From Aureispira sp. CCB-QB1 (GTDB taxonomy: Bacteria > Bacteroidota > Bacteroidia > Chitinophagales > Saprospiraceae): a stretch of DNA of 64,000 bases. Position 1 is the stretch's first letter. Each line of letters begins with the position of its first letter. Both the position numbers and the translations under genes were made by a program. The DNA lies in the NCBI RefSeq assembly GCF_000724545.1, contig NZ_JHBV01000005.1:62001-126000 (forward strand). Direction: 5' to 3'. Below the pieces are notes generated by a model. The model saw only the letters and a list, made by a program, of their open reading frames with translations. It made no database searches and was not told where the DNA came from. Positions 57,322 through 64,000 of the stretch are shown here, piece by piece.

Positions 57322-57975
57322 ATGAAACCAATCAAAGTATATCATAAAGACGACGGTAATCACCATCAACCCGACCACAATTGTGGTCCTAATTGCAACC
57401 ATGAACATCATCAACATGATGTTACAGAAGATACGAAGGTTTTTAAAGAAGATAAAGTCAGAATTATTCCTGAAAAAAAAGCCAATCGAATTACATTTGA
57501 AAATTTCATACAATTTTTCCCATTGGTAGAATTGCCCTATACAATCACCTCTGATACACAACGTTTAATCAGCCAAAAATGTGATCCACTTTCAGCAACT
57601 TGGATGTTTAATTTTGTGTTGGATAAAGATGCGGTTATTGATGAATACACCGAATATATGCCTTGTTTTTCGATCCCTGATACACCAGGCTTTTTTGCTA
57701 TTGTTTTTTGGGAAGCAGGCATCGAAGGATCTACTTATTATCTAACTACTTTTTCTAAAAATGGAATTTTAATTGATAAAAAGAAGATCGCGGGAACTAA
57801 ATACGAACAAGATGGGTTGTATCAAATGGTTTGCACAATCAGCCCTACTTGGTTGTTTAGTTGTGCAGAAGGGCGTTTAGACGCTGAGGGAAATACCGCT
57901 CCAGTATCTTCCGATGACAATCACCTCCATACTTCTTTACAATTGACAGGAGATGGAGAAATTGTTCCGATTTAA
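57322..57975 (+). CDS. Protein with a His/Cys-rich N-terminus
   Basis: A 217-residue protein without a signal peptide. Residues about 9-34 read DDGNHHQPDHNCGPNCNHEH and HQHD, a dense cluster of histidines and cysteines likely to bind metal. The rest is an alpha-beta domain with FENFIQFFPLVELPYTI, MFNFVLDKDAVIDEYTEYMPCFSI, GFFAIVFWEAGIEGSTYYLTTF and LHTSLQLTGDGEI. I do not recognise it. It is isolated, 139 bases after the lipoprotein gene. Confidence 0.7.
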   Translation: MKPIKVYHKDDGNHHQPDHNCGPNCNHEHHQHDVTEDTKVFKEDKVRIIPEKKANRITFENFIQFFPLVELPYTITSDTQRLISQKCDPLSATWMFNFVLDKDAVIDEYTEYMPCFSIPDTPGFFAIVFWEAGIEGSTYYLTTFSKNGILIDKKKIAGTKYEQDGLYQMVCTISPTWLFSCAEGRLDAEGNTAPVSSDDNHLHTSLQLTGDGEIVPI

Positions 57976-58211: not shown

Positions 58212-61211
58212 ATGACAAAAAAAAAGAAAGGCTCTAATAAAAAAGGAAAAAACTTACCTGTACACCTTTTAGAGAAAAAAATAATTGATTTGTTTAGCAA
58301 ACAGATCACTTCACGATTTGATGCCAAAGGCATTATTGGTAAATTAAGAATTTCAAATTCTAAAGATTCCGTTCAACACACCTTAGATAAATTGGTCGAG
58401 AAGGGAAAAATTGAAAAAGCCAGTCGTGGTAAATACAAATGGAATAAAGCCGCTAAAACAGCGAAGAAAGATAAACGAAACAATGCTCAAACGACTATTG
58501 GTAGAGTAGATGCGACTCGTAGCGGCTCTGCTTATATTATCAGTGAAGATTTAGAGCAAGATATTTTTGTTCCTGCCCATAAATTAATGGGGGCTCTCAA
58601 TGGCGATACTGTAGAAGTATCGTGGTATATGGCTCGAAAGGACAAACCAGAGGGACAAGTCATTCAAGTCCTTGAACGCAAATCTGAAAACTTTATCGGT
58701 ACCTTATCCTTGTCTGATAAATTTGCTTTTGTTATTCCTGATAACCCTAATATGCAAACCGATATTTTTGTTCCACTAAAATATGTCCCCAAGGAAGCAG
58801 AAGATGGTGCAAAAGTAGTTGTAACGATTGTAAAATGGGCAACAGACAACAAGAATAATCCAGAAGGAAAGGTGACGACTTACTTTGGAACAGAAGGAGG
58901 AAATGATATTGAGATGAAATCGATCTTAATTCAAAAAGGGTTTAATCTAACTTTTCCTCCAGAAGTACTCAAAGAAAACGCTGCTATTGATACCGAAGTC
59001 AAGCAAAGTGAAATTGATAAGCGTAGAGATATGCGTGCCATTACCACATTTACAATTGACCCTGCGACAGCCAAAGACTTTGATGATGCTTTGTCTATTG
59101 AATTATTAGAGAATGGTAATTACGAAATTGGAATTCATATTGCCGATGTAGGGCATTATGTCTTGCCTGGTTCTGAGTTAGACAAAGAAGCTGCAAGAAG
59201 AACAACTTCTGTTTATTTAGTGGATCGCGTACTACCTATGTTGCCTGAGAAACTATCCAATGGTGTTTGTTCGTTACGACCCAATGAGGAAAAATTAACC
59301 TTCTCTGCGGTTTTTGAAATGAATAAGCAAGGTAGTATTATTAATGAATGGTTTGGTAAAACCGCTATTTATTCTGATCGTCGTTTTACTTATGAGGAAG
59401 CGCAAGAACGCATAGAATCTGGTGAAGGGGACTACGCTCAAGAATTGCAACTACTCAATGGCTTGGCGTATAAATTACGAGCACAACGTTTCAAAAAAGG
59501 AGCGATCAACTTTGAATCGCCTGAAGTTCGCTTCAAACTAGATGAAAATGGTGTTCCGCTTGAAGTATACCTAAAAACTAGAAAAGATGCCCATATGTTG
59601 GTCGAAGACTTTATGTTATTGGCTAATAGACGGGTTGGAGCACTAATGGATGGCTTGCACGAAAAAACAGGCATTCAATGGCCTATGGTTTATCGTATTC
59701 ACGACGAACCAGATATGGAGCGAGTTCATAACTTCACTGATTTTGCAGCTCAGATGGGCTACAAGATGAAGATTGAATCTCCCGAACAAGTAAAAAAAGC
59801 TTTTGGAAAAATGCTGAAAGAAGCGGAAGGAAAACCAGAAGCGGATATTTTGCAACAACTAGCCATTCGCACTATGGCTAAAGCGGTCTACTCGACCAAC
59901 AATATTGGGCATTATGGTCTTGGTTTTGCAACTTACTCGCATTTCACGTCTCCTATTCGACGCTATGCAGATGTGCTAGGACACCGTATTTTGTTCGACT
60001 ATTTGAGTGACAACAACAAGCGAATGAACGCACAGAAATTAGAAGAGTTATGCAAACATATTTCTAAAAAAGAGCGCGATGCTATGGAAGCAGAACGAGA
60101 GTCTGTAAAATACAAACAGGCGGAATTCTTAGAAAATCATGTAGGCGAAAAGTTTGAAGGAACTATTTCTGGAATTACAGACCATGGTATTTATGTTAGC
60201 ATCAAAGCCAATTTCTGTGAAGGGATGATTCGCTACGAGAAAATGTTTGATGACTTTAGCCCTGATGAACATCATTTCCAAATCAAGTCTCCTTCAATTA
60301 CTTATCGAATGGGAGATAATGTTTGGGTTAGTGTCTTGGGCGCTAATAAATTTAAACGACAAGTTGATTTAGAATTGCTAGACCCTGAAGATGAGGCGAA
60401 CCGACCTCCTGTTCGAGAAGAAGTAAAGGAACTAACATTTGCAGAACAAGAAGTAGCCAATAAAGCACAAGAAGTTGCTTCGGAGGTTGCTAAAGAGGCT
60501 CCTGCTCCTAAAAATGAACCTAAAAAAGGTATTAAAAGAGTTAAGGTCGTTCAAGAACCTAAAAAGGGTAGAAAAAATGTTCAATCTACTTATAATGCGA
60601 AGAACGAACCTTTCGAAGCTTTGTTGCCTGATGTTCAAAAAGCATTTAACAAAAGCCATATCAAAAATATTGCGAAGCAGAAAAATGCAAAATGGAGATA
60701 TGAAATTGCTCCTTCTGCTCCAATGCCAGACTCTGTCTTGTTGTTGCATTTCAACCCAGAAGCGGCTTTAAACAAAGGATATCGTGGTCAAAAATTAATC
60801 TCCAAACATCCTTTCAAGCCGCAAGGAAGCACCAAAACGTTCTTCAAAACTTACTTCCCTCAAGAAAGACTTTCAGAGGGATATTTGTCTCCTTTCCGTT
60901 CTTTGGATGACAAACAACTCTCTAAAAAAGATATTGAATTGAGTTTGCCAATTTTTGAAGCTTTCATTCAGTTATTAAAGCCTAAAAAAATTGTTTCCTT
61001 CTCAGTTCCTATGGTAGAAACCTTGCAAAAGAATAATTATCTAAGCAATCTTGAAGAAGAGGAAGTTACAGATCAAGGACGTACGGTTATTACCTCTAGA
61101 GGTATTTTGAATGTTGGTGAATTAAAAATTCCAATTTATTTCGTTCCTAGACCTTCCTCCCGTTTACTAAAGGGACTAAAAACCTTGGCTTGGGAATGGG
61201 CATTGACTTAA
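58212..61211 (+). CDS. rnr: Ribonuclease R with a C-terminal extension
   Basis: A 999-residue 3'-5' exoribonuclease. An N-terminal winged helix (about 17-78) and two cold-shock OB domains (95-245) precede the RNB nuclease domain (275-605), with active-site acids D283, D289, D291 and D292 in TIDPATAKDFDDALSIE and later SHFTSPIRRYADVLGHR. An S1 domain lies at about 665-745 (GEKFEGTISGITDHGIYVSI). After a Lys/Glu-rich linker (750-790) comes a further domain of 212 residues (788-999) not found in standard RNase R: VLLLHFNPEA, GYLSPFRSLDDK, PIFEAFIQLLKPKKIVSFS and PIYFVPRPSSRLLKGLKTLAW. This tail resembles a uracil-DNA glycosylase-like fold (see findings). A TTG at 57994 and TATATTTA at 58014 may be its promoter. 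Confidence 0.93.
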   Translation: MTKKKKGSNKKGKNLPVHLLEKKIIDLFSKQITSRFDAKGIIGKLRISNSKDSVQHTLDKLVEKGKIEKASRGKYKWNKAAKTAKKDKRNNAQTTIGRVDATRSGSAYIISEDLEQDIFVPAHKLMGALNGDTVEVSWYMARKDKPEGQVIQVLERKSENFIGTLSLSDKFAFVIPDNPNMQTDIFVPLKYVPKEAEDGAKVVVTIVKWATDNKNNPEGKVTTYFGTEGGNDIEMKSILIQKGFNLTFPPEVLKENAAIDTEVKQSEIDKRRDMRAITTFTIDPATAKDFDDALSIELLENGNYEIGIHIADVGHYVLPGSELDKEAARRTTSVYLVDRVLPMLPEKLSNGVCSLRPNEEKLTFSAVFEMNKQGSIINEWFGKTAIYSDRRFTYEEAQERIESGEGDYAQELQLLNGLAYKLRAQRFKKGAINFESPEVRFKLDENGVPLEVYLKTRKDAHMLVEDFMLLANRRVGALMDGLHEKTGIQWPMVYRIHDEPDMERVHNFTDFAAQMGYKMKIESPEQVKKAFGKMLKEAEGKPEADILQQLAIRTMAKAVYSTNNIGHYGLGFATYSHFTSPIRRYADVLGHRILFDYLSDNNKRMNAQKLEELCKHISKKERDAMEAERESVKYKQAEFLENHVGEKFEGTISGITDHGIYVSIKANFCEGMIRYEKMFDDFSPDEHHFQIKSPSITYRMGDNVWVSVLGANKFKRQVDLELLDPEDEANRPPVREEVKELTFAEQEVANKAQEVASEVAKEAPAPKNEPKKGIKRVKVVQEPKKGRKNVQSTYNAKNEPFEALLPDVQKAFNKSHIKNIAKQKNAKWRYEIAPSAPMPDSVLLLHFNPEAALNKGYRGQKLISKHPFKPQGSTKTFFKTYFPQERLSEGYLSPFRSLDDKQLSKKDIELSLPIFEAFIQLLKPKKIVSFSVPMVETLQKNNYLSNLEEEEVTDQGRTVITSRGILNVGELKIPIYFVPRPSSRLLKGLKTLAWEWALT

Positions 61212-61264: not shown

Positions 61265-61304
61265 AAACTCTGCTGCTCTTTAAATGGGTAGCAGAGTTTT
61301 TTTT
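61265..61304 (+). terminator. Terminator after rnr
   Basis: A 10-bp stem (61265-61274 with 61290-61299), followed by a run of eight T. An upstream start codon at 61284 for the next gene would lie within this hairpin. Confidence 0.85.
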
Positions 61305-61331
61305 ATTGTAACTGATTCCTTAAATTTAGGC

Positions 61332-61778
61332 ATGAAACGAACCATTCTACTATTTGGCAGCTTAACCATTGCTTTGTTACTCCTCTTTCAAGTGAGCAAG
61401 TATTCTTTGTGGCACCAACCCTCCCACCTAGAGTTTTATATTGTTTGCATTGGTCTTTTGTTTATAGGCATTGGAATTGCTTTAAGTCGTTTTTTTACCA
61501 AAAAAAATATTTACAATCCAACGGGGACACCAATTCCTAATAGCACTCAAATTCCTAAGGAAATTGATCAAGCTAAACTAAAGGAAACAGGATTAAGCAA
61601 AAGAGAGTACGAGATATTATTACTCATCGCAGATGGTCTATCCAATAACGAAATTGCTCAACAGCTTTTTATTTCAGAAAGTACGGTCAAAACACATGTT
61701 TCCAAAATTCTTTCTAAGTTAGATGCCAAAAGAAGAACACAAGCTGTTCAAATTAGTCGGTCGCTGAAAATCATCTAA
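61332..61778 (+). CDS. Membrane-anchored LuxR-type transcription regulator
   Basis: A 148-residue protein from the ATG at 61332. Two membrane segments (about 4-20 and 33-51) precede a linker and a C-terminal GerE/LuxR helix-turn-helix domain ([56 protein letters not shown]). There is no receiver domain. The usual start at 61284 is rejected because it lies in the rnr terminator. A membrane-tethered DNA-binding domain would sense a signal at the membrane; the signal is unknown. Confidence 0.85.
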
Positions 61779-62531: not shown

Positions 62532-63023
62532 ATGAAAAAGACTATCTTTCGATATGGCTGTCGAGCAGGAATTACAATAACAACATTTAGTACCATCAAC
62601 TGGTTTTTATTTTCGGACTTACTAGATTATTCTAGTAGCGAAATTGTTGGTTATTTATCTATTTTAGTAGCTTTATCAACCATTCCACTTAGCATACGAT
62701 ATTATCAACAGCAACATTCTAAACAGCCCCTCTCTCTTAAAGAAATATGGAGTCTTGGAATCGGTATTTCTACCGTTGCAGCAACATTTATGTACTTATA
62801 TAGTGCGCTATTTTTTCATTATATGGGAGATGATTTTATGCAATGGACACAAGCCAATATGGATTCTACGCAGTGGCAACAAATGCAAGCACAAATGGCA
62901 ACCATGCCTAGTTACTTTTTAAGTCCTTGGTTTCAAGCTTTTGTTATGTTTGCAACCGTATTTCTGATTGGTGTTATCATCACGATTATCTGTACTTTGG
63001 TTGTAAAGCTACGTCCAAACTAA
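62532..63023 (+). CDS. DUF4199-like membrane protein
   Basis: A 163-residue protein with four hydrophobic helices (about 10-30, 38-58, 72-95, 132-158). The opening FRYGCRAGITITTFSTINWF, EIVGYLSILVALSTIPLSIRYY and SLKEIWSLGIGISTVAATFMYLYSALFFHYM are typical of DUF4199, a small Bacteroidota membrane family. Function unknown. Its stop overlaps that of the convergent helicase gene. Confidence 0.75.
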   Translation: MKKTIFRYGCRAGITITTFSTINWFLFSDLLDYSSSEIVGYLSILVALSTIPLSIRYYQQQHSKQPLSLKEIWSLGIGISTVAATFMYLYSALFFHYMGDDFMQWTQANMDSTQWQQMQAQMATMPSYFLSPWFQAFVMFATVFLIGVIITIICTLVVKLRPN

Positions 63024-64000
63024 AAATGTTGCTGATAAAAATCTACCACTCGCTCATCAACAAAAATATCTTGTGGGCGCAATGGACGACGCAACACAAT
63101 TCCTTCTAATGTTCTGCAACGGCTCAAGGCAACATACGTTTGACCATATTCAAAGGCTCCTTTGCCCATATCAATAATTACTCGGTCAAAAGTTTTGCCT
63201 TGGCTCTTGTGAATGGTCATAGCCCAAGCCAATCGAAGCGGATATTGAGTAAACGTACCAATATTTTCCGTCTCAATCTCGTTTTTATCGTTCAATTTGT
63301 GGCGTACGACATCCCATTCAAAAGGTTCTACATCAATATATCCTACGGTTCCATTCGGTTTAAGTATCATTACTTTTATAGAATTTGCGGTCAAGTCATG
63401 TACCATTCCTACTGTTCCATTAACATAGCGCTTTTTAGGGTCATTTTTTAGAAACATCACTTGAGCACCTACTTTTAAGTTTAGAGGTGTTTCTGCGGGC
63501 AATACGGATACAGAACCTGTGATTTTCGCCAAATACGAAAATGTTTCCGTTCCTAACTCCTCTAATTTTTGCTTGTTAATCTTGTCTACTTCTGCATTTC
63601 GAGCCGATAGGATGACATAAAAATCTTCATCTTCTAAAGTTTCTTGATACCGCTCATTCAGGTCATTAAATTCGTCCTCATCAATACGGCGCAACCGAAT
63701 AGCATCCAAGAGGCGTATAAAACGCAAGTTATCTTGACGATACACCTCTCTCAATTCTATCATATTAATTTCTAACTCCTGAAACACCTCCGCAGAAAAG
63801 AAATAAGGGCTTTCGTACTGTTGTTGGAACAGTATTTTTTCTTCTCTCGACGCGATGACAGGCGGTAATTGGAACAAATCCCCAAAAAAGATCATTTGAA
63901 CCCCACCAAAAGGCGCTGGATTTCCTCGATTTACCCGCAAAAAGAAGTCAATTTGTTCTATCATATCTGCTCGAACCATTGAAATTTCGTCTATTACAAT
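63020..64000 (-). CDS. PIF1-like DNA helicase, C-terminal fragment
   Basis: An open frame runs in from the window edge at 64000 and ends at 63020; at least 326 residues are present. The first visible residues, IVIDEISMVRADM, are the Walker B motif, so the Walker A motif lies outside. Then IFFGDLFQLPPV (helicase motif III), ELREVYRQDNLRFIRLLDAIR, VLSARNAEVDKIN and, near the C-terminus, LAWAMTIHKSQGKTFDRVIIDMG and YVALSRCRTLEGIVLRRPL (motifs V and VI). This is the 5'-3' superfamily 1B (PIF1/RecD) type. The domain with NGTVGMVHDL is the usual SH3-like insert. There is no stop or frame break. Confidence 0.9.
   Translation of the reverse strand: MVIDEISMVRADMIEQIDFFLRVNRGNPAPFGGVQMIFFGDLFQLPPVIASREEKILFQQQYESPYFFSAEVFQELEINMIELREVYRQDNLRFIRLLDAIRLRRIDEDEFNDLNERYQETLEDEDFYVILSARNAEVDKINKQKLEELGTETFSYLAKITGSVSVLPAETPLNLKVGAQVMFLKNDPKKRYVNGTVGMVHDLTANSIKVMILKPNGTVGYIDVEPFEWDVVRHKLNDKNEIETENIGTFTQYPLRLAWAMTIHKSQGKTFDRVIIDMGKGAFEYGQTYVALSRCRTLEGIVLRRPLRPQDIFVDERVVDFYQQHF

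Follow-up and report, generated by a model that had tools for sequence, protein, structure and literature searches.

RNase R is one of the main enzymes by which structured RNA, and the mRNA of stalled ribosomes, are degraded. In Aureispira sp. CCB-QB1 (Bacteroidota; Saprospiraceae), the gene for this enzyme encodes an extra C-terminal domain, and the question is what this domain is, how it came to be there and what it might do. A preliminary description had compared it with the uracil-DNA glycosylase (UDG) superfamily and had supposed that it binds rather than excises bases. Here, we examined this idea in a window of 64,000 nucleotides (contig NZ_JHBV01000005.1, positions 62,001 to 126,000 of the forward strand); all coordinates below are those of the window.

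Organization of the RNase R gene

A single uninterrupted open reading frame of 999 codons (58212-61211, plus strand) codes for RNase R, a linker and the extra C-terminal domain. The RNase R equivalog model TIGR02063 covers residues 20-723 with 679 bits against a cut-off of 597.85, and the order of the core domains according to Pfam is cold-shock, cold-shock, RNB and S1. The parts of the gene are as follows:

58212..60380, plus strand: RNase R core, residues 1-723 (Pfam and TIGR02063 matches), with an N-terminal helix-turn-helix-like part, cold-shock domains at 97-153 and 173-249, RNB at 271-599 and S1 at 644-721
60381..60605, plus strand: charged linker rich in Lys, Glu and Ala, residues 724-798, variable and fast-evolving (pN/pS 0.26-0.55)
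60606..61208, plus strand: predicted UDG-fold domain, residues 799-999, about 200 residues (AlphaFold2 and Foldseek against PDB; the Saprospira grandis homologue likewise)
60735..60758, plus strand: VLLLHFNP, residues 842-849, putative counterpart of motif A (by motif register; strand 55-59 in the model)
60879..60932, plus strand: predicted strand 2 and the following loop, GYLSPFRSLDDKQLSKKD, residues 890-907 (alignments A2 and A4)
60972..61004, plus strand: predicted strand 3, LLKPKKIVSFS, residues 921-931, with Phe-Ser invariant in 11 tails
61146..61163, plus strand: putative motif B equivalent PRPSSR, residues 979-984, without His (alignments; compare MPSSSAR of family 2)
61209..61211, plus strand: stop codon

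The preliminary description had placed an extra C-terminal segment at 60573-61211, and positions 60573-61208 indeed code for residues 788-999 in the same 999-residue frame, with all the motif letters named at that time present in them. The extra domain itself stands, but not its start at residue 788: the first modelled helix begins at about residue 799, and residues 788-793, assigned here to the linker, have a pLDDT below 50 in the AlphaFold2 model.

No Pfam or NCBIfam family matched residues 788-999 above its cut-off, nor was there a match among PDB sequences. When the PDB sequences were compared with a profile of eight tails, merely two matches were obtained (E 0.42 and 1.5), both of them unrelated. 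A likeness to thymidylate kinase (E 0.002-0.007 over about 50 residues) was rejected because it was short, local and under the curated cut-offs. A SEFIR match in one of the eight tail members (E 1e-4) was also set aside, having no backing from the fold searches.

As for the neighbouring genes, a 217-residue open reading frame (57322-57975, plus strand) has a His-rich start, HHQPDHNCGPNCNHEHHQHD, is possibly metal-binding and has no Pfam match at E 0.01. Directly 3' of rnr lies a gene (61284-61778, plus strand) whose short product has hydrophobic stretches along with a LuxR-type helix-turn-helix (GerE, E 1.6e-21), and a gene for a PIF1-like helicase (63020-64000, minus strand; E 1e-12) extends past the window end.

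Predicted fold of the C-terminal domain

Residues 788-999 of the window protein were modelled by AlphaFold2 from an 8-row alignment with a pLDDT of 82.5 and a pTM of 0.83. The tail of S. grandis, which is 23% identical to the window tail, was modelled from an 11-row alignment with a pLDDT of 91.2 and a pTM of 0.88; the two alignments overlap, so these runs are not fully independent. In Foldseek searches of the PDB with the window model, the UDG superfamily accounted for 8 of the 9 matches at E<=0.001 and for 47 of the best 50 rows, including chains of family 4, Mug/TDG, UdgX and SMUG1, and a family 4 UDG was at the top (4zby, E 4.7e-5). The non-UDG rows were the molybdenum insertase Cnx1E and gephyrin (6rms at rank 4, 9gw9 at ranks 13 and 15). 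With the S. grandis model, all 19 matches at E<=0.001 and 33 of the best 50 rows belonged to the UDG superfamily; the best matches were of family 2 (Mug/TDG), and 9gw9_B appeared at rank 30. Thus a UDG-superfamily top match in the PDB, which the preliminary description had named as support for its idea, was obtained with both models. When a viral library was searched by Foldseek, one of the three matches at E<=0.001, and four of the first seven, were annotated as uracil-DNA glycosylase or glycosylase-like, the rest of the first seven including a phage G protein, an unnamed protein and a DNA polymerase.

The TM-scores to UDG chains were about 0.4-0.5 with rmsd of about 6-10 A, values that show the predicted domain to be a distant or distorted member of the superfamily. 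In the window model, the pLDDT drops below 50 in the loop that follows motif A (tail residues 64-72), and a long beta hairpin precedes the last strand. A UDG-like alpha/beta/alpha fold of the tail domain is well supported by these models, although not beyond doubt at such TM-scores.

Comparison with UDG families

None of the UDG models in Pfam and NCBIfam matched the window tail, and none of those in Pfam matched the eight members of alignment A2. We then compared the tail with ten UDG sets by hhalign. In local mode, P was 0.2-0.63 for nine sets and 0.017 for one, the UDG-like protein L228; in global mode, P ranged from 0.16 to 0.93, the highest value being that of L228. Among 60 column shuffles per set, the real score was reached by 7-50 shuffles for nine sets and by none for L228, and the summed score was 142.9 as compared with a shuffled mean of 132.3 and a shuffled maximum of 147.5. 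L228 is over the Pfam UDG cut-off, and by profile its family comes nearest to the RNase R tail. A local comparison of the tail with an alignment of five sequences of this family gave a P of 0.026, the score being reached by none of 100 shuffles, and FNP of the tail was aligned on MDP, FVPRPS on IPHPS. As the best of ten tests, the L228 match may be taken as support, but not as proof, for a relationship to UDGs.

L228 together with L237-L242 represents a rare family of UDG-like proteins of about 270-330 residues, which was present in 6 of 295 class genomes and whose motifs are degenerate (GMDP or AMD.., PHPSG or PHIS).

As positive controls, known UDG sets were compared pairwise by the same procedure. 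Of the ten pairs, six reached P<0.05 and two P<0.001; the pair of family 1 and E. coli Mug had a P of 0.32. The L228 family gave P<0.05 with three of six UDG sets. Since four of the ten true UDG pairs were over P 0.05, the profile test has limited power. Judged by profile, the tail links to the UDG sets less well than true members do. The sequence does not establish its place in the superfamily, and its probable membership rests on the predicted fold.

Active-site motifs

According to the cited sources, motifs A and B are GQDPY and HPSPLS in family 1 and GINPG and MPSSSAR in family 2 (Mug/TDG) (PMC10359453), the Asn in motif 1 of family 2 has been proposed to activate or position water, the His of motif 2 (motif B) is missing from families 2 and 6 (PMC5387724), and an FeS cluster is a feature of families 4 and 5 (PMC8307549). 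The E. coli Mug sequence itself reads GINPG...LPNPSGLSR.

Thirteen distinct tails were read, 12 of which extend to motif B. The motif A site has the form x[F/M]NPx in ten tails and AWL in the other three (S. grandis and a congener), and none of the 13 has the GINPG glycines. At the motif B site, His is found in none of the 12 tails; PxP[STG]xR is present in six and PSATSR in one, and the other five are different. With the motifs placed by their register in the models and by non-significant alignments, such as that of the tail with E. coli Mug in which NP was aligned on NP, Asn848 would be in the place of the family 2 motif A Asn. Elsewhere in the domain, the Pro, Ser and Asp columns within residues 890-907 are invariant in 11 tails (alignments A2 and A4). 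Cys is absent from the window tail and varies from 0 to 4 across the 11 tails of A4.

The preliminary description had compared the motif B site with HPSxLL, which is the pattern of families 1 and 4; the family 2 type (Mug/TDG) is nearer. It had also read the missing motif B His as a sign of inactivity. The absence itself holds for all 12 tails, but family 2 also lacks this His, so that its loss alone is no proof of an inactive domain. The absent glycines of GINPG and the loss of Asn-Pro in S. grandis and its congener argue more strongly that the chemistry has been lost or altered.

Distribution and origin of the fusion

In a survey of the family, a 206-residue RNB/S1 probe was searched against 248 genomes, 233 of which had a match. 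Among the matches listed, all but the weakest, RNase R frames of 975-1032 residues were found in eight genomes of three genera (g1, g57 and g76), and all remaining RNase R rows listed were of at most 869 residues, the 869-residue frame being that of G046. A search with the tail in 150 family genomes listed 22 places: five genomes had clear homologues, each inside an RNase R frame, and 17 matches were weak (E 0.002-0.09). Twelve of the weak matches, and one more from another search, were translated; all 13 were of the same peptide type with an in-frame stop in each, and they were rejected as the probable antisense strand of a single conserved gene. The weak matches outside this translated set were L009, L013, L019, L021 and L023, and the long frame at L021 is unlike RNase R. 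In a profile search of 395 class genomes, the own genome was the sole real match for the tail, and the other nine matches were fragments (E 0.001-0.08), five of which contain stops. Genome contigs searched with the tail alone gave no match.

When named genomes were searched with an alignment of S1 plus tail, the tail was present in 10 of 44 relatives, comprising Aureispira MAGs, S. grandis Lewin and DSM 2844, and Saprospiraceae MAGs (L065 ends at a contig edge, and in L073 the tail is in a different frame). In the remaining 34 relatives, the match has ended by roughly the last residues of S1. Twelve of these sequences were read, and all stop 99-121 residues past the AERxS motif; a few of the others (e.g. 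L081 and L099) lie too close to a contig end to be judged by the match alone. Among the 80 relatives kept out of 102 from viral contigs, no match extended past query residue 132, that is, all were without the tail. The tail had no match in phage and plasmid records and none under E 0.06 in PHROGs. Within the genomes searched, the tail at the end of RNase R is limited to the Aureispira/Saprospira lineage of marine bacteria; the same fusion, which the preliminary description had expected to be sought in relatives, was found there in eight family genomes and in 10 of the 44 named relatives.

One of these records, a MAG titled Saprospira grandis DSM 2844 (L069), has a tail very unlike that of the DSM 2844 record L071 (29% and 94% identity, respectively, to the S. 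grandis Lewin tail in alignment A4), and the label of this MAG is therefore doubtful.

We reconstructed a tree from 53 RNase R core sequences, 48 of them different, trimmed at the end of S1 and with full bootstraps. A single branch (ultrafast bootstrap 96, SH-aLRT 92) separates all 18 tail-bearing rows from the others, and 95% of 200 bootstrap trees concur; the 35 tail-less rows are a selection made of the best family-survey matches and some loci from the S1 plus tail search. A quicker tree, in which as many as about 30 residues past S1 were left on the cores, gave an SH-aLRT of 91 for the tail-bearing side. The nearest named relatives of the window RNase R in the core tree are uncultured Aureispira. 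Since the tail-bearing cores fall on one side of a supported branch, one gain suffices.

Constraint, composition and charge

Between the window gene and four relatives, pN/pS was 0.18-0.47 in the tail domain, 0.09-0.23 in the core and 0.26-0.55 in the linker, figures that are rough because synonymous sites are near saturation (pS 0.57-0.79). Purifying selection acts on the tail domain, which has changed faster than the core. These pN/pS values, together with the 13 distinct tails read, indicate that the extra domain is more than chance. The core and the tail are alike in GC (0.380 and 0.365) and GC3 (0.31 and 0.32), so that no sign of a recent import is left. The folded domain of the window protein is basic (residues 801-999, net charge +10, pI 9.7), and the net charge of the last 199 residues ranges from -7 to +10 in seven tails. 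The value of -7 is that of L064 (Aureispira), which has an extra acidic end, DTDDNDDDFDQE, after its UDG-fold domain.

Possible functions of the domain

The reading that we favour is that the domain binds nucleic acid instead of excising bases. In its full form, to which we give about an even chance, the domain would be a degenerate UDG-fold module that binds RNA or the ribosome in place of the K/R-rich tail of RNase R, with base excision lost after one ancestral fusion. In a common ancestor of Aureispira and Saprospira, a UDG-superfamily gene, whole or in part, would have been fused to rnr at its 3' end, and this fusion would have been retained in the lineage ever since. The domain would have lost base excision, and its old DNA-binding face would now grip nucleic acid, RNA or the ribosome being the likeliest target. 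It would thereby replace the K/R-rich tail that docks E. coli RNase R on SmpB/tmRNA and on stalled ribosomes, and docking by the domain would deliver RNA to the RNB channel. According to a review, which adds a caution on the truncation used, the K/R-rich C-terminal region of RNase R binds SmpB and is needed for ribosome association (PMC12320835). In support of this placement, the UDG-fold domain occupies, on its linker, the position of the K/R-rich region, and in the window protein it is basic (net +10, pI 9.7). For the superfamily, action on RNA is reported in the case of SMUG1 in rRNA quality control (PMC7826747). The genome also has two genes matching PF03167, one of which is family 1-like (GQDPY, HPSPL), so that DNA uracil repair need not depend on the RNase R domain. 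On the other hand, the inconstant charge (-7 to +10) counts against this reading, as does the motif A Asn-Pro, which survives in 10 of 13 tails and could reflect retained catalysis. The modest TM-scores (0.4-0.5) also weigh against it, as do the sequence profiles, by which the tail is linked to the UDG sets less well than these are to each other.

Because the charge varies within the lineage, a protein-docking role stays a real rival, in which the domain would serve as a protein-protein module for docking, stability control or self-association without contact to nucleic acid. We consider this rather unlikely. The motif letters that would face nucleic acid are unconserved in the clade and the structural-looking Trp, Leu-Leu, Pro and Phe-Ser are conserved, which together with the varying charge would suit such a module, and the stability of E. 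coli RNase R is governed, according to the review, by SmpB binding to S1 and the C-terminal region (PMC12320835). However, the UDG chains in the Foldseek lists are mostly DNA glycosylases, and the window tail is basic. An active glycosylase of the family 2 type, which would remove damaged or modified bases and couple base detection to RNA decay, appears improbable: the GINPG glycines are gone in all 13 tails, the three tails of S. grandis and its congener lack Asn-Pro and yet it is the S. grandis tail that was modelled with higher confidence, and the loop after motif A is below a pLDDT of 50 in the window model. What speaks for activity is the Asn-Pro in 10 of 13 tails and Pro-x-Pro-[Ser/Thr/Gly]-x-Arg in 6 of 12, as well as two reports from the literature: families 2 and 6 are without the motif B His (PMC5387724), and SMUG1, which also belongs to the superfamily, reportedly processes modified RNA (PMC7826747).

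It is also quite unlikely, in our view, that the domain is a reader of abnormal RNA bases, with a UDG-type pocket and with or without glycosylase chemistry, that passes flagged RNA to the exonuclease; if so, the protein would be a one-protein bacterial machine for the disposal of damaged RNA. A different alpha/beta fold that only looks like UDG is likewise quite unlikely. Such a fold would agree with the weak profile results (local P 0.2-0.63 for 9 of 10 UDG sets; global P never below 0.16 and 0.93 for L228), set against 6 of 10 pairs of known UDG sets that fall below P 0.05 in this local comparison, and also with the molybdenum-insertase/gephyrin chains among the Foldseek matches and TM-scores of 0.4-0.5. 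But UDG families rank first for two divergent models, the L228 family outscores every one of 100 column shuffles in the local comparison, where its motifs A and B line up with those of the tail, and 4 of 10 true UDG pairs likewise have P over 0.05. The simplest reading is that a decayed glycosylase now serves to dock substrate or the ribosome.

Relationship to known systems

The window protein shares the full CSD-RNB-S1 core of RNase R (TIGR02063; RNase II/RNB family) over the equivalog cut-off, but it has a folded C-terminal domain of about 200 residues, in contrast to the unstructured K/R-rich region described in the review (PMC12320835). With family 2 (Mug/TDG), the domain has in common the predicted fold, Asn-Pro in 10 of 13 tails and a motif B without His; it differs by lacking the GINPG glycines and any Pfam UDG match, by its long beta hairpin and by the fusion to an exoribonuclease. 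Although a UDG of family 4 was the best PDB match of the window model (4zby), the tail has neither GE(A/G)PG nor HPSxxxR, and the window tail is without Cys, unlike a family that holds an FeS cluster (PMC8307549). Human SMUG1 is likewise a UDG-superfamily protein reported in rRNA surveillance and quality control, but it is a separate catalytic enzyme and a partner of dyskerin, and a nuclease fusion is unmentioned in the abstract of that article (PMC7826747).

Among the open-access titles and abstract openings listed, there was no report of an RNase R-UDG fusion, which is weak evidence of absence as most subscription papers lie outside this literature. RNase R and the UDG fold are each well known, and their fusion is the new part. 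The review ascribes the docking of E. coli RNase R to a floppy basic tail (PMC12320835). With a folded domain from a superfamily that recognizes bases in the position of this tail, the lineage may offer a rigid counterpart of the targeting device for study, and the domain would be an unusual reuse of a DNA-repair fold in RNA decay.
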